64,000 nucleotides of DNA, from positions 1-64,000 of the forward strand of contig NZ_VUOH01000005.1 of the NCBI RefSeq assembly GCF_015390235.1, given 5' to 3'. Of this stretch, positions 3,581 to 9,454 are shown piece by piece. The stretch's first letter is position 1; every line of letters begins with the position of its first letter. The stretch is from Quadrisphaera sp. INWT6. GTDB lineage: Bacteria; Actinomycetota; Actinomycetes; Actinomycetales; Quadrisphaeraceae. A model generated the notes under the pieces. It saw only the letters and a list, made by a program, of their open reading frames with translations. It ran no database searches and was not told the DNA's origin. Position numbers and translations under genes: made by a program.

Positions 3581-3657
3581 AGCCACCGGGGAGCCACCGG
3601 GGAGCCGCCGGGGAGCCGCCGGGGAGCCGCCGGGGAGCCGCCGGGGAGCCGCCGGGG
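3581..3657 (+). repeat. Tandem repeat, seven copies of an 11-bp unit
   Basis: Seven head-to-tail copies of AGCCRCCGGGG: two with A and five with G at the fifth base. It lies between the exporter gene and the phosphatase gene. The unit is not a multiple of three, and no frame across it looks like a real protein. Confidence 0.9.
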
Positions 3658-3729
3658 AGCGGGAGGGACGCACCCGGACAGCTCCCAGGGTGCTCCCGGG
3701 GAGTCCCCGCGCCGTGGTTCGATCGCTGC

Positions 3730-5361
3730 GTGGTGGCACGTCAGAGCCGCGGGGCCCGCGACGGCGGGGGCCCGGCGCTCATCCCCGAGGAGTGGTGGCA
3801 GCGCGCCGTCGCGGCGCACCCCGACCCGGTCGCCGTCCTGGGCCCGGGGTGGGAGGTGCTCTGGGTCAGCGACGCCGCCGCGACCGCGAGCGGTGTCGAC
3901 GCCGAGGCCGTGCTCGGGCTGGTGCTGTGGGACGCGGTGCCCGGCACCTCGACCAGCCGCGAGCCCCTGCTGCGCGCCGCGCGCACCGGCCTGACCTCCA
4001 CCTGGGAGGCGCGCATCGGCGGCCCGCGCTGGTACGAGCTGCAGGCGGTGCCGGTCGACGGGCTCGTGCTCGTCATCGCCCGCGACGCCGACCGGCGCCG
4101 GGCCGCGGCCGCCGAGCGCGAGGCGCTGCTCGAGCGCACCCGCACCCTCCTGGAGGTGTCCACCGCCCTGGCCGCGGCGCGCACGCTCGACGAGGTCGCC
4201 GCGACGGTGGTCGAGGTGGCCACCGAGCACCTGGGGGCCGACTACGCCGGGCTCTCGGTGCTCGAGCCGGTGGCCCGGCGGGTGCGCACGATCGCCAGGG
4301 CCCAGCTGCGGCCCGACGTCGAGCAGGCCTGGGCCGACCTGCCCCTGGACCACCCCGGTCCGGCGCCGTGGGTCTGCCGCACGGGGCGCGAGCTGGTCTT
4401 CGACGACCTCACCGCGGTGCGCGCCGCCTTCCCGGAGGTGGCTGAGCGCGTGGAGCGCTCCGGGCTGCGCTCGGGCGCCGTGGTGCCGCTGGTGGCCGAG
4501 GGCGCCGTCGTCGGGTCGCTGACGGTGGGGTGGGCCGCCGAGCACCCCGTCGAGCCCGAGCTCGACGTGGTCAGGGCGTTCGCCGCGTACACGGCTCAGG
4601 CGGTGCGGCGCGCGGTGCTGCTCGCCGACCGGACCAGCGCGGCCGAGGTGCTCCAGCGGGCGCTGCTGGAGCCGCTGCCCAGCTGCCCCGGGGTCGAGCT
4701 GGCAGCCCGGTACCTGCCCGCGGCCCGCGGTGACCACGTGGGTGGCGACTGGCACGACGCCGTCCCGCTCGACGGCGGCCGCCTGGCCCTGGTGGTCGGC
4801 GACGCCGCCGGGCACGACGTCGCCGCGGCGGCGGTCATGGGCCGCGTCAGCGGGAGCCTCCGCTCGTTCCTCCTCGCCGTGGACGGGCCGCCCTCGCGCA
4901 CCCTGCACGCCGTCGACGCCGTCATGGCGCGCCCGGGGCGGTCGGCGCCCACGAGCGCCGTCGTCGGCGTCCTCAGCCCTCCGCGGCCCGACGGGGTGCG
5001 GGCCTGGCGATGGTCGAACGCCGGCCACCCCCCGGCGCTGCTGGTGCTGCCCGACGGGCGGGCCACCGCCCTGGCGCGCACCCCTGAGCTGCTGCTCGGG
5101 GTGGAGGACCACGCGGAGCGCTCCGACCACGTCGTGCCGGTGCCCCCGGGGGCGGTGCTGCTGCTGCACACCGACGGCCTGGTCGAGCGCCGCGACCTCG
5201 ACCTCGACCAGGGCCTGCAGCGCCTGCAGGCGCTCCTCGGCCCCCTGGTGGTCGAGCACGCCAGCGCGCCGCTGGAGGACCTGCTCGACGCGGTGCTGGC
5301 GGCGTGCCTGCCCGAGCGGCCCGAGGACGACGTGGTGCTGCTGGCGGCGCGCACGTCCTGA
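3730..5361 (+). CDS. PAS-GAF-PP2C (SpoIIE/RsbU-type) serine phosphatase
   Basis: 543 aa. A PAS-like domain (about 15-115) contains VLGPGWEVLWVSDAAATASG. A GAF domain (about 135-300) follows, then a PP2C/SpoIIE phosphatase domain (about 320-540) with GDHVGGDWHDAV, LVVGDAAGHDVAAA, NAGHPPALLV and HTDGLVERR, which carry the metal-binding aspartates. Such proteins dephosphorylate anti-anti-sigma factors in partner-switching stress cascades, with PAS/GAF sensing the signal. No anti-sigma partner is adjacent. An RsbW-like ATPase lies at 30.8-32.0 kb. GTG 3730 is chosen; GTG 3733 is equally possible. Confidence 0.88.
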   Translation: MVARQSRGARDGGGPALIPEEWWQRAVAAHPDPVAVLGPGWEVLWVSDAAATASGVDAEAVLGLVLWDAVPGTSTSREPLLRAARTGLTSTWEARIGGPRWYELQAVPVDGLVLVIARDADRRRAAAAEREALLERTRTLLEVSTALAAARTLDEVAATVVEVATEHLGADYAGLSVLEPVARRVRTIARAQLRPDVEQAWADLPLDHPGPAPWVCRTGRELVFDDLTAVRAAFPEVAERVERSGLRSGAVVPLVAEGAVVGSLTVGWAAEHPVEPELDVVRAFAAYTAQAVRRAVLLADRTSAAEVLQRALLEPLPSCPGVELAARYLPAARGDHVGGDWHDAVPLDGGRLALVVGDAAGHDVAAAAVMGRVSGSLRSFLLAVDGPPSRTLHAVDAVMARPGRSAPTSAVVGVLSPPRPDGVRAWRWSNAGHPPALLVLPDGRATALARTPELLLGVEDHAERSDHVVPVPPGAVLLLHTDGLVERRDLDLDQGLQRLQALLGPLVVEHASAPLEDLLDAVLAACLPERPEDDVVLLAARTS

Positions 5362-5515
5362 GCGGCACCCCCGGGACGGCACGGGGGCAGCGGTCGCGGG
5401 GCCGGACGGGGCCGTGCACGATGGCGGCGCACCTCTGGGCGTCCGGCTCCGCCGGGTCCGTCCGTCCGTCAGACCCCGGTCCCGCCGTGCGGGCCGGCCG
5501 CGAGCAGGAGGCCCC

Positions 5516-5836
5516 ATGTCCCTCAGCGACGACGACATCACCACGACGACGGGTGCGGCGGGTGCCGGCGGCGACGCCGACGCCGGCGACTCCGACGCCA
5601 CCCAGGTCGACCCCTCCGGCTCCGACCCCGCGGGCGTGGACCCGGCCGGCGGCTCGGGCGGCGACGCCGACGCCGGCGACTCCGACAGCACCCAGGTCGA
5701 CCCCTCCGGCTCCGACCCGGCCGGCGTGGACCCGGCCGGCGGCTCCGGCGGCGACGCCGACGCCGGCGACTCCGACAGCACCCAGGTCGACCCCTCCGGC
5801 TCCGACCCGGCCGGCGTGGACCCGGCGAACAGCTGA
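5516..5836 (+). CDS. Acidic tandem-repeat peptide, candidate modified-peptide precursor
   Basis: 106 aa from ATG 5516, after GAGCAGGAGG. The first 17 residues, MSLSDDDITTTTGAAGA, are leader-like. The rest is almost three copies of a 30-residue unit (18-47, 48-77, 78-106) built from GGDADAGDSDSTQVDP and SGSDPAGVDPAGGS. It has no Cys, Lys, His, Arg or aromatic residue and is very acidic. It ends 1 nt before a cupin dioxygenase gene that overlaps a sucrase/ferredoxin-like gene. This arrangement resembles a RiPP-like precursor with its modifying enzymes. I recall similar acidic short ORFs annotated BatC in actinobacteria but cannot verify that here. Confidence 0.75.
   Translation: MSLSDDDITTTTGAAGAGGDADAGDSDATQVDPSGSDPAGVDPAGGSGGDADAGDSDSTQVDPSGSDPAGVDPAGGSGGDADAGDSDSTQVDPSGSDPAGVDPANS
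5567..5833 (+). repeat. 90-bp tandem repeat inside the acidic peptide gene
   Basis: Copies at 5567-5656, 5657-5746 and 5747-5833. Copies 2 and 3 are identical until the last codons. Copy 1 differs at a few bases (Ala for Ser at repeat residue 11, plus silent changes), which suggests recent duplication or homogenisation. Confidence 0.95.
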
Positions 5837-5837
5837 C

Positions 5838-7157
5838 GTGACGGCTGAGCTCGAGCGCGAGCTGGCGGCCCCGGTCCCCTCGGGGACCGGGGCCGGCCCG
5901 TCGCCGCTCGCCCGCTGCTTCGAGACGACGCCGGAGCGCTTCGCCGCCGAGCAGTGGAACCGCACGCCGCTGCTGGTGCGGGCCGCCGACCGCGCGTCGT
6001 CACCGGCGCGCGGCTTCGACGACCTCCTCTCCCCCGCCGACGTCGACGCGCTGCTGGGCCCGCGCGGCCTGCGCACGCCGTTCTTCGCCATGGTCAAGGA
6101 CGGCGTCAGCCTGCCGCGCTCGAGCTACACGCGGTCCGCCAACGCGGGCAACCAGCGCCTGGGCGACATGCCCGACCCCGACGGCATCGCGAAGAACCAC
6201 GCCGAGGGCGCGACCATCGTGCTCAACGCGCTGCACCGCGTGTGGCCGGCCCTGGGGGTCTTCTGCCGCGACCTCGCCGCCGAGCTGGGCTGCCAGACGC
6301 AGACCAACGTCTACGTCACCCCGCCCGGCGCGCAGGGCTTCAAGCCCCACCACGACACCCACGACGTGCTGGTGCTGCAGGTCGACGGCCGCAAGCACTG
6401 GACCATCCACCCGCCGGCGGTCGAGCTGCCGCTGCGCACCCAGCCGAGCAAGGACCTGGGCCCCGACCCGGTGGGCGGGCGCGAGCCCCTCATCGACACG
6501 GTGCTGGAGCCGGGCGACGCGCTGTACCTGCCGCGCGGGTACCTGCACTCGGCGCAGACCACCGACGACCGCTCCATCCACCTCACGGTGGGCCTGCTGG
6601 CCACCACCTGGCAGGACGTCCTCACGGACCTCCTCACCAGTGCCGGGAAGGGCGGTGGCGAGGACTCCCTCGCGCTGCGCCGCGCCCTGCCGCTGCCCGT
6701 GGAGGCCGAGGGGCCGACGGGCCTGGAGACCGACGTCGCCGCCTTCCGGCGCGCGGCGCTCGCGTGGCTGGAGCAGCTCGACGACACCGCCGTCGAGCGC
6801 GTGGTCGCCGCGCGCCGTCGTCAGGCGGTGCCGCTGGAGCCCGTGGGCCCGCTCTCACAGGACCGGGCGGCCCGTTCCCTGGGGGCCGACGAGGCCGTGC
6901 GCCCGCGGGTCGGGCTGCACACGCGCGTCCGGACCGCCGGCGAGCGCGTGGAGCTCCTCGTCGGGCAGCGCACCGTGAGCTTCCCCGGGTGGGTGGAGCC
7001 CGCGCTCCGCGCGGCGCTGGCGGGCCCGTCCTCGCCGTCGTCGGTGGCGGGCTCGGGTGTCGCGATCGACCTCGACGACGCGCAGGTGCTGCTGCGGCGC
7101 CTGCTGCGCGAGCGGGTGCTCGTGCCCGCCAGCGGCTCCGCGGAGGGGCTGAGCTGA
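5838..7157 (+). CDS. JmjC/cupin (Cupin_4) 2-oxoglutarate oxygenase-like protein
   Basis: 439 aa from GTG 5838, 1 nt after the peptide gene's stop. The N-terminal ATPERF-like segment and WNRTPLLVR resemble ribosomal oxygenase (ROX/YcfD, MINA/NO66) proteins. The iron site is visible: H171-H-D173 in KPHHDTHDVLVLQVDGRKHW, and H237 in LYLPRGYLHSA. A Thr/Lys-rich strand after the HxD fits 2-oxoglutarate binding. The C-terminal part (about 300-439) is a winged-helix-like region, as in the family. Relatives hydroxylate protein side chains. The likely substrate is the adjacent Asp-rich repeat peptide rather than a ribosomal protein, but this is inferred from gene order only. Confidence 0.85.
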   Translation: MTAELERELAAPVPSGTGAGPSPLARCFETTPERFAAEQWNRTPLLVRAADRASSPARGFDDLLSPADVDALLGPRGLRTPFFAMVKDGVSLPRSSYTRSANAGNQRLGDMPDPDGIAKNHAEGATIVLNALHRVWPALGVFCRDLAAELGCQTQTNVYVTPPGAQGFKPHHDTHDVLVLQVDGRKHWTIHPPAVELPLRTQPSKDLGPDPVGGREPLIDTVLEPGDALYLPRGYLHSAQTTDDRSIHLTVGLLATTWQDVLTDLLTSAGKGGGEDSLALRRALPLPVEAEGPTGLETDVAAFRRAALAWLEQLDDTAVERVVAARRRQAVPLEPVGPLSQDRAARSLGADEAVRPRVGLHTRVRTAGERVELLVGQRTVSFPGWVEPALRAALAGPSSPSSVAGSGVAIDLDDAQVLLRRLLRERVLVPASGSAEGLS

Positions 7158-8182
7158 CGTCCGACCAGCCGGGTGAGCTCCTCGCGACGTCCTACGCGCC
7201 CGAGGGGCTCACCCCCGCTGACCGCCGCTACTCCTGCGCCGCGGAGTCGCAGCTGCGGTCGGAGCCGGTGCTGGGGACCGCCAGCCCCACCCGCGGCTAC
7301 CTGCTGGTGGAGGAGCCCGGCCCGTGGGGCCCCGGCGGCGTGCCCACCTCGCGGCTCGGCGACGCAGCGACCGCCGCGCTCAAGGAAGCCGCGACGGGGA
7401 TGGGCGCCAAGCTGCTGCTGGTGCGCCGGCCCGGGACGAGCGTGCTGCGCGCCGGGCCGTCGAACGCCCCCGGCTTCGACGACCAGCGCGTCCTCATGCG
7501 GGTGTCCGTGCGGCGCGGTCGCGAGCGGGTGCTCGCGCGGAGCTGTGCGGCCGCCGACGTCGTCGAGACCGCCCGCTCGCGCGAGGGGTGGCACGACCTC
7601 GACACCTCCGACGGCGGCCCGCTGCTCGTGTGCACCCACGGCCGCAAGGACTGGTGCTGCGCCCGCCGCGGCCGGCCGCTGGCCGCGGCGCTGGCCGAGC
7701 TCGCGCCCCAGCGGGTGTGGGAGTGCTCCCACCTGGGCGGAGACCGGTTCGCCGCCAACCTGCTGTCGCTGCCGACGGGCTGGACGTACGGCCGGGTCGA
7801 CGTCGACGACGCCGCCTCGGTGGTCGCGGAGACCGCCGCAGGACGGGTGGTGCCGTCGCTGCTGCGCGGTCGCAGCTGCGACGCGATGGTGGTCCAGGCG
7901 GCGGACGTGCTGGCCCGCCAGGAGCTGGGCGTCACCGGGGCGGCGGACCTGGTGCCGGTGTCGGCGGCGCGTGAGGGCGAGGACGGCGACGCGCCGTGGC
8001 GGGTGGTCTTCGACGGCGCCGGCAGCACCTCCAGCACCGGGAGCACCGGCAGCGCTGGCGCCGGCCGTCTGGCGGTGCGGGTGCACCAGCGGCACGTCGA
8101 GAGCCCGCAGCGCCTGACGTGCGGCGCCGCTGCGGAGCAGCACGCCCGCACCTGGCAGCTGCTGGACCTCTCCCCCGCCTGA
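7154..8182 (+). CDS. Sucrase/ferredoxin-like (thioredoxin-fold Fe-S) protein, CTG start
   Basis: 342 aa. Cysteine motifs CTHGRKDWCCARRGRP and WECSHLGGDRFAANLL are those of the sucrase/ferredoxin-like family, expected to bind a [2Fe-2S] cluster. The N-terminal YSCAAESQLRSEPVLGTA is also typical. No ATG, GTG or TTG lies near the expected start in frame. CTG 7154, overlapping the cupin stop as CTGA and preceded by GGAGGGG at a good distance, fits. A Gly/Ser/Thr-rich insertion occurs near residues 290-305. It probably supplies electrons to the cupin oxygenase or acts on its product; the family has no proven role known to me. Confidence 0.82.
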   Translation: MTSDQPGELLATSYAPEGLTPADRRYSCAAESQLRSEPVLGTASPTRGYLLVEEPGPWGPGGVPTSRLGDAATAALKEAATGMGAKLLLVRRPGTSVLRAGPSNAPGFDDQRVLMRVSVRRGRERVLARSCAAADVVETARSREGWHDLDTSDGGPLLVCTHGRKDWCCARRGRPLAAALAELAPQRVWECSHLGGDRFAANLLSLPTGWTYGRVDVDDAASVVAETAAGRVVPSLLRGRSCDAMVVQAADVLARQELGVTGAADLVPVSAAREGEDGDAPWRVVFDGAGSTSSTGSTGSAGAGRLAVRVHQRHVESPQRLTCGAAAEQHARTWQLLDLSPA

Positions 8183-8226
8183 CGGGCTGGCAGGACCGGG
8201 GGGCTCCGTCCTCGACCCCCCTCGAC

Positions 8227-8279
8227 TGGCGCAGGGTGGCCCCGCGCCACTCCCACTGGTGCAGGGCCACCCCGCGACA
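8227..8279 (+). repeat. Dispersed 53-nt hairpin element, copy A
   Basis: Arms of 23 nt (8227-8249 and 8257-8279) pair at 19 of 23 positions around the loop CTCCCAC. It belongs to a family with copies at 8401-8453 and 55263-55315. The 345-bp gap 8183-8528 holds these hairpins and no convincing gene. Confidence 0.8.
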
Positions 8280-8400
8280 CCTCCGTGGTGGCGCAGTTCC
8301 GCCCAGCGCCCGCACGGCGGGGCAGCTCCAGCGACCGGGGTCGAACGGGGCAGGAGACGCCCCCTCCCGCAAGGTGGGTGGATCTGCGCCAGTCCGGGAC

Positions 8401-8453
8401 TGGCGCAGGGTGGCCCTGCGCCACTCCTCCTGGTGCAGGGCCACCCTGCGCCA
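8401..8453 (+). repeat. Dispersed 53-nt hairpin element, copy B
   Basis: Arms 8401-8423 and 8431-8453 pair at 22 of 23 positions around the loop CTCCTCC. Just upstream is a 25-nt palindrome, CTGCGCCAGTCC with its inverse, that ends in the same TGGCGCAG sequence. Confidence 0.85.
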
Positions 8454-8473
8454 ACGGGGGAACCGGCACGCGA

Positions 8474-8511
8474 CGAGGGCCGCCCCCACCTCGCGGTGGG
8501 AGCGGCCCTCG
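8474..8511 (-). terminator. Rho-independent-type terminator hairpin
   Basis: CGAGGGCCGC and GCGGCCCTCG arms with inner CCCACC/GGTGGG pairing, just beyond the stop of the minus-strand aldo/keto reductase gene. Confidence 0.65.
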
Positions 8512-8528
8512 TCAGCGGTCGAGCCCCG

Positions 8529-9410
8529 TCAGCTGGGGACGTAGTCGAAGGTCTCGGGGTTCGGGCCCGTGCGGCCGGCCTCGCCCTTGTCGAGGGCGGA
8601 GATGGCGGCGATGTCGGAGTCGGCCAGCTCGAAGTCGAAGATCTCGAAGTTGGCCTGCATGCGCTCGGTGGTCACCGACTTCGGGAAGACGATGTCACCG
8701 CGCTCGACGTGCCAGCGCAGCGTGACCTGCGCGGTCGACTTGCCGACGCGCTCGGCGACCTCGGAGATGGTCGGGTCGTCCAGGACCTTGCCCTGGGCGA
8801 TCGGCGACCACGCCTCGGTGGCGATCTGGTGCTCGGCGCCGTACTCGCGGACCTCGGAGTTGGTGAAGTAGGGGTGCACCTCGACCTGGTTCACGGCCGG
8901 GGTGACCTCGGTCTCGCGGGCGAGGCGGCGCAGCTGGTGCGGCGTGAAGTTGGAGACGCCGATGGAGCGGGCGCGGCCCTCGCGGTAGAACTCCTCGAGC
9001 ACGCGCCAGGTGGCGGGGAAGTCGCCGTCGTACAGCGTCGGCAGCGGCCAGTGGATGAGGAACAGGTCGACCTGCTCCATCCCCAGCTTGCTCAGCGTCT
9101 CCTCGAAGGCCTTCCGCGCGTCGTCGGGGCGGTGGAAGCCGTTGTTGAGCTTGCTGGTGATGAAGAACTCGTCGCGGTCGATCCCGGAGGCGCGCACGGC
9201 CTCGCCGACGCCCTCCTCGTTGCCGTACATCTCGGCGGTGTCGATGTGGCGGTAGCCGATCTCGATGGCGCGCCCGGTCACCTCGGCGGTGTCCTCCGGC
9301 GGCACCTGGAACACGCCGAACCCCAGCTGCGGGATGGTCCGGCCGTCGTTCAGCGCGATCGTCGGGACGGCCGTCGACGTCTGCGTGGTCTTCTGCGTCG
9401 TGTCGCTCAC
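8529..9410 (-). CDS. Aldo/keto reductase (2,5-diketogluconate reductase-like)
   Basis: 293 aa from GTG 9410, after GGAG. The NAD(P)H-dependent AKR barrel is clear. The catalytic tetrad is visible as Asp and Tyr in HIDTAEMYGNE, Lys in FITSKLNN and His in LIHWPLP. SIGVSNF and the cofactor-binding IVFPKSVTTERM near the C-terminus match the AKR3/AKR5 group that reduces diketogluconate and small aldehydes. It follows a luciferase-like gene on the same strand after 44 bp, so the two may be co-transcribed. A terminator hairpin follows the stop. Substrate unknown. Confidence 0.9.
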   Translation of the reverse strand: MSDTTQKTTQTSTAVPTIALNDGRTIPQLGFGVFQVPPEDTAEVTGRAIEIGYRHIDTAEMYGNEEGVGEAVRASGIDRDEFFITSKLNNGFHRPDDARKAFEETLSKLGMEQVDLFLIHWPLPTLYDGDFPATWRVLEEFYREGRARSIGVSNFTPHQLRRLARETEVTPAVNQVEVHPYFTNSEVREYGAEHQIATEAWSPIAQGKVLDDPTISEVAERVGKSTAQVTLRWHVERGDIVFPKSVTTERMQANFEIFDFELADSDIAAISALDKGEAGRTGPNPETFDYVPS

Positions 9411-9454
9411 GACTGCTCCAGTACCCCGTCGCCGGAGATCCACACCTGTCCGGG

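Follow-up and report, generated by a model that had tools for sequence, protein, structure and literature searches.

A conserved cassette of an acidic repeat peptide, a JmjC-type oxygenase and a Suc_Fer-like protein in actinobacteria points to an uncharacterized family of modified peptides

The locus in Quadrisphaera sp. INWT6

The stretch analyzed here, referred to as the window, comprises positions 1 to 64,000 of contig NZ_VUOH01000005.1 from Quadrisphaera sp. INWT6 (GCF_015390235.1). It contains three closely packed genes on the + strand, encoding a 106-aa acidic repeat peptide with the appearance of a precursor (5516-5836), a 439-aa NO66-like oxygenase of the JmjC_2/Cupin_4 type (5838-7157; hereafter the cupin), and a Suc_Fer-like protein with a thioredoxin-like [2Fe-2S] ferredoxin domain (7154-8182). 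A first-pass annotation had described a peptide free of Cys and aromatic residues, built of three near-identical 30-residue units, and reading of the open reading frame together with Tandem Repeats Finder reproduced this description; the peptide also contains no His. An AGGAGG lies immediately 5' of its ATG, the leader-like N-terminus (MSLSDDDITTTT) occupies 5516-5551 (+), and the three 90-bp units (5556-5645, 5646-5735 and 5736-5826, all +) span 5556-5826 with 95% matches. Units 2 and 3 differ from each other by 1 nt, and unit 1 differs from either by 9-10 nt. No Pfam or NCBIfam model matched the window peptide, and no second peptide of this type was found in the genome beyond the cassette's own.

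The tight gene spacing claimed in the same annotation was likewise recovered. A single nucleotide separates the stop codon of the peptide gene from the GTG of the cupin gene at 5838, and the Suc_Fer gene likely starts with the CTG at 7154, giving a 4-nt overlap (CTGA) with the cupin gene. This start was assigned because no ATG, GTG or TTG is located near the expected position (the first in frame falls far inside the cupin gene) and because two related loci, L003 and L004, also read LTSDQ. A scan for sigma-70 promoters and terminators detected none, and IdeR-box matches 5' of the peptide gene were no better than those in shuffled sequence, so there is no sign of iron regulation.

The cassette is bordered by a phosphatase-like gene on its 5' side (3730-5361, +) and an aldo/keto reductase-like gene on its 3' side (8529-9443, -). 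Within the genus of the window, genomes G001 and G002 carry the cassette between these same two genes; G003 and G004 have no cupin, and their matches to the flanking genes lie only 16 bp and 20 bp apart, respectively. Since the flanks abut in these two sister genomes, the segment from 5362 to 8531 (no strand assigned) is present or absent as a unit, and the three genes have been gained or lost together. Two further repeats mark the neighborhood. A 56-nt REP-like palindromic element (TGGCGCAGGGTGGCCCYGCGCCA) occurs twice just 3' of the cassette (8224-8279 and 8398-8453), its core being found at only four places in the genome, and an 11-bp tandem repeat (AGCCGCCGGGG; 7.3 copies, 98% matches) is located at 3581-3660, 5' of the phosphatase-like gene.

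The oxygenase and its Suc_Fer partner

The cupin matches Pfam JmjC_2 (PF08007) at 1.5e-29, and its best PDB relative is NO66, by sequence (phmmer, 4e-29) as well as by fold. Its AF2 model (pLDDT 90) matches human NO66 along the entire length in Foldseek, and end-to-end matches extend to MINA53 and YcfD. The iron site H171-x-D173...H237 and K186, a probable 2-oxoglutarate lysine (6348-6548, +), are invariant in 39 relatives and are kept in peptide-free homologues too, while three basic positions, R79, R134 and R421, distinguish the peptide-associated group. With a JmjC fold, the HxD...H triad and a lysine for 2-oxoglutarate, the protein has the features of a ROX/NO66-type enzyme, and the earlier proposal of a ROX-type oxygenase with an intact iron site is borne out. 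The Foldseek alignment to NO66 and the AF2 secondary structure also identify a C-terminal winged-helix domain, whose final helix carries R421 in the model; AF2 secondary structure, alignment and this group-specific residue together single out a segment of the gene at 6897-7127 (+). The order of strands and helices in this domain fits the RRE fold as described in PMC12710340, and the region with RRE-like order in the AF2 model also matches the winged helix of NO66. No similarity to the PqqD profile was found for the domain (hhalign probability below 1%), nor did Pfam return a match, and a leader-binding, RRE-like role is therefore only a suggestion.

The product of the third gene matches the Suc_Fer-like family PF06999 at 2e-19. 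No solved relative was found by sequence; one emerged by fold only, when the AF2 model (pLDDT 86) was compared by Foldseek and its C-terminal domain aligned with the thioredoxin-like [2Fe-2S] ferredoxin of Aquifex (TM 0.7 by target, probability 1.00, E about 0.007). Five Cys and two His (C27, C159, H161, C167, C168, H192 and C322) are invariant, and family match, fold and these conserved residues together predict a [2Fe-2S] cluster.

Distribution and gene linkage

The cassette of acidic peptide, JmjC oxygenase and, usually, Suc_Fer protein recurs across the Actinomycetota, in dozens of genera from several classes. Across the surveys below, an Asp-rich and mostly repetitive peptide gene precedes the cupin in about 115 of 115 evaluable orthologous loci; cupin genes of this group without an upstream peptide, which the first-pass annotation had named as evidence against its proposal, were not encountered. 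A search of 119 relatives recovered the cupin in 32 genomes, nearly all of which have an acidic repetitive open reading frame 5' of it and most of which have Suc_Fer 3' of it. A wider genome scan with one genome per species returned more than 530 relatives, and the best 80 of these were examined. They include Kineococcus, Quadrisphaera, Geodermatophilaceae, Curtobacterium, Cellulomonas, Agromyces, Gordonia, Rhodococcus, Dietzia, Williamsia, Mycobacterium/Mycolicibacterium, Pseudonocardia and others, and at all 78 evaluable loci the peptide lies directly 5' of the cupin (two of the 78, affected by masked bases or a contig edge, were judged by eye). No natural peptide-cupin fusion occurred among these best 80 loci. 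Many of the carrier genera are cultured, among them Geodermatophilus, Modestobacter, Curtobacterium, Cellulomonas, Gordonia, Rhodococcus and Mycolicibacterium. In an even sample of the phylum, the cupin was detected in 58 of 396 genomes and the peptide was present at every evaluable locus, other classes included, where the repeats take different forms (DGDASDA, DADSTDAD, DGTDGDS, SADGTDQGVEGGTYGPRDA).

Linkage was also followed toward the limits of the family. Among 20 further loci, the 12 with mid-range cupin scores had the peptide in 10 cases and a contig edge in the other 2, and the eight most distant cupins (L142-L149) had neither Suc_Fer nor an acidic peptide. When the peptide itself was used as query against 149 genomes of the order, four matched, each immediately beside a cupin, and there were no matches in cupin-less genomes. 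On plasmids, the search gave distant cupins and no others, and none of them spanned 80% of the query at a single location. Two loci with more distant cupins and no Suc_Fer, L030 and L031, belong to genomes with several cupin copies; a different short acidic peptide (MSNQEISPEEPETDEVLAHSAEEDEDGAGCVGQFNAA) lies upstream of the L030 cupin and is perhaps another cupin-linked precursor family. Two record titles look taxonomically misassigned: L032, 'Streptomyces sp. NP160', has a 95% identical cupin that groups with the window/Kineococcus clade, and L090, 'Bacillus sp. AZ43', groups with Blastococcus.

To compare neighborhoods, one locus per genus was taken, giving 27 genus representatives. What these have in common is limited to the cupin and Suc_Fer genes, together with the peptide, which was seen separately; the remaining neighbors reflect synteny at the family level. 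This shared trio and the empty site in G003 and G004 substantiate the claim that peptide, cupin and Fe-S gene form a conserved unit. A short precursor-like gene beside a candidate modifying enzyme, conserved across taxa, is a feature by which RiPP systems are recognized, and the cassette shows it. A leader protease and/or exporter is usual in RiPP clusters without being universal, and across the 27 representatives no conserved protease or transporter/exporter neighbor was found.

The place of Suc_Fer within the unit is looser. It lies 3' of the cupin on the same strand in 73 of the 80 best loci; three of the other seven end at contig edges, and four (L042, L098, L104 and L107) have no Suc_Fer in the available sequence. 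Four genomes that have peptide and cupin and no adjacent Suc_Fer encode no Suc_Fer anywhere, so the protein is not a requirement and is probably a helper. The Fe-S partner envisaged at the outset belongs to the conserved unit, but its dispensability weakens that part of the proposal. Among the loci outside the usual arrangement, the L129 peptide stands apart in having Tyr and Arg in its repeats (SADGTDQGVEGGTYGPRDA), and its genome has no Suc_Fer. L020 and L027/L116, from one genus, have no adjacent Suc_Fer and a Suc_Fer gene elsewhere in their genomes; they are among the few members whose peptides are acidic and not repetitive, ending in ...DLxEDQxxGxGPTxEPGA.

These patterns bear on whether the cupin is simply an ordinary ribosomal oxygenase that modifies a ribosomal protein and happens to adjoin a functionally unlinked peptide, as its end-to-end fold match to NO66, MINA53 and YcfD could imply. 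A ribosomal modifier would need no such linkage, and we consider this explanation very improbable in view of the strict association, the empty site in sister genomes, and the lack of the peptide both in cupin-less genomes and beside more distant cupins. The gene context argues for the peptide over a ribosomal protein as the probable substrate of the cupin.

A conserved leader and variable acidic cores

The 117 peptides compared range from 40 to 183 aa (median 84 aa), and their composition is dominated by Gly (29%), Asp (20%) and Ala (17%), with Cys in none of them. At the N-terminus most carry the motif [LI]-x-D-[DE]-D-[IM]-x-T, represented by LSDDDITT in the window and by INDDDITT, LDDDDMTS and LSDDDIET elsewhere. 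The downstream cores fall into three main kinds: GDADSGDSDSTQVDP in the clade of the window, EGPADGGxNPxGHDGGADG or DGGADGG, and DxD repeats. A leader-like motif retained while tandem cores vary is the pattern of RiPP precursors, and it sustains the earlier view of the peptide as precursor-like.

Pooled within 12 genera, pS is 0.353 and pN is 0.051 (pN/pS 0.145), and by this measure purifying selection acts on the amino-acid sequence of the peptide. A short, repetitive frame 1 nt before the cupin start could otherwise be taken for a regulatory leader ORF, or for a chance low-complexity frame in high-GC DNA. Selection on the amino acids, an N-terminus conserved despite widely different repeats in other classes, and lengths of 40-183 aa leave that explanation scarcely credible; its presence at about 115 of 115 evaluable orthologous loci, together with purifying selection, makes the peptide more than a product of chance.

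Repeat type follows the enzyme phylogeny: the cupin tree requires 8 changes of type, compared with a mean of 37 for shuffled labels, a difference to which near-identical relatives contribute. Such co-variation is relevant to the possibility that the peptide is a partner of the enzyme and not its substrate, acting as an acidic metal buffer or metallochaperone that gives Fe(II) to both iron proteins while the cupin modifies some other target. The very high Asp content of the peptide and its position next to two iron proteins, the cupin and Suc_Fer, suit this role, but repeat sequence and copy number vary with enzyme clade while the short N-terminal motif is kept, which is the usual leader-plus-core pattern, and we judge a metallochaperone decidedly unlikely.

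Asp occurs in all 117 cores, Ala in all and Gly in all but one, and many cores consist of D/G/A/S/T only. His, Pro, Gln and Asn were each considered as a universal target and rejected, every one of them being missing from some cores. Asp, Pro and Gln had been put forward initially as candidate residues; since many cores lack Pro and Gln, Asp remains the sole common target of the three. Known JmjC hydroxylases attack side-chain carbons, namely those of His, Arg, Asn, Asp and Orn, and NO66-type enzymes are best known for hydroxylation of His and Arg, the first of which the window peptide does not contain. Of the side chains known as JmjC targets, only Asp is common to all cores.

Proposed mechanism

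The observations above directly show that the genes are linked as a unit and are present or absent together, that purifying selection acts on the peptide, that repeat type varies with enzyme clade, and that the catalytic site is intact in a NO66-like fold. We propose, with a probability of roughly 60%, a RiPP-like cassette whose JmjC enzyme binds the leader and hydroxylates the recurring Asp residues at the beta position, Suc_Fer serving as an optional helper. The NO66-type enzyme would recognize the acidic, conserved start of the peptide, perhaps by way of the C-terminal winged helix of the enzyme, and, with Fe(II), O2 and 2-oxoglutarate, would hydroxylate repeated core Asp residues at the beta-carbon; Suc_Fer would most likely keep the iron of the oxygenase reduced or deliver electrons.

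A related explanation retains the peptide as substrate and changes the chemistry, to oxidation of Gly or Ala, desaturation, cross-linking, or a modification completed by Suc_Fer. It draws on the presence of Ala in all cores and of Gly in all but one, comparable to that of Asp, on the five invariant Cys and two invariant His of Suc_Fer, which could do more than transfer electrons, and on macrocyclization by 2OG enzymes in RiPPs, as indicated by the title of a paper cited in PMC12710340 (Xia et al. 2025). Known JmjC hydroxylases, on the other hand, target side-chain carbons, and we know of no JmjC chemistry on Gly or Ala. On balance we regard such alternative chemistry as unlikely, and retain beta-hydroxylation of Asp as the preferred reading.

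Under Asp hydroxylation, the likeliest product would be an intracellular, highly anionic, hydroxylated Asp-repeat polypeptide, since no conserved protease, exporter or iron-box motif was found. With no protease or transporter in the cassette, there is no indication of a secreted RiPP product, which may instead remain intracellular, and a secreted siderophore is unsupported by iron-box or exporter evidence. That the product binds metals or other cations is a tentative guess from composition. The cassette points to a widespread, uncharacterized family of modified peptides; a more ambitious extension, which we hold to be doubtful, is a phylum-wide, undescribed RiPP class in which a NO66-like JmjC enzyme makes genetically encoded peptides of the poly(beta-hydroxy-aspartate) type. 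These would bind metals or other cations multivalently inside the cell, and the 2OG oxygenase would have its own [2Fe-2S] redox partner. If the proposal is true, a NO66-like enzyme devoted to one peptide substrate would connect ribosomal oxygenases with RiPP maturases, and its two or three genes could serve as a simple system for placing hydroxylated Asp at many positions of a designed polypeptide. Bacterial Suc_Fer proteins are poorly understood, and the cassette gives them a testable role.

Comparison with known systems

The cassette is real, occurs widely and is, to the extent of the literature searched, undescribed: no description of a peptide-JmjC-Suc_Fer cassette was found in freely accessible papers. 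The cupin shares with NO66, MINA53 and YcfD a JmjC core with HxD...H, a helical middle domain and a C-terminal winged helix. It differs from them in its low identity (only about 22%), in its group-specific Arg residues, in sharing an operon with the genes for its own acidic peptide and for an Fe-S protein, and in its likely substrate, an Asp-rich peptide that in the window has neither His nor Arg. A JmjC/cupin gene beside a ribosomal precursor peptide is also found for BipG (PMC12707348) and PbsQ (PMC12257519), gamma-ornithine hydroxylases of biphenomycin-type RiPPs that act on their precursors. Those clusters include MNIO, B12-radical SAM, arginase and TldD-type enzymes and a single FRF core, whereas the window cassette has one oxygenase and tandem Asp-rich cores. 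JmjC (PF08007) proteins with RRE-like folds, with bacterial homologues in RiPP-like contexts, are described in PMC12710340, whose main text gives no cluster details and mentions no precursor of the window type; unlike the RRE-dependent RiPP systems treated there, the window cupin has no PqqD sequence match. The Suc_Fer protein resembles sucrase/ferredoxin-like proteins and thioredoxin-like [2Fe-2S] ferredoxins (Aquifex ferredoxin, Azotobacter FeSI) in its PF06999 match and C-terminal fold match, and it differs from these in an extra N-terminal part, a conserved H-x-G-G-D, its five invariant Cys and its physical linkage to a JmjC oxygenase.
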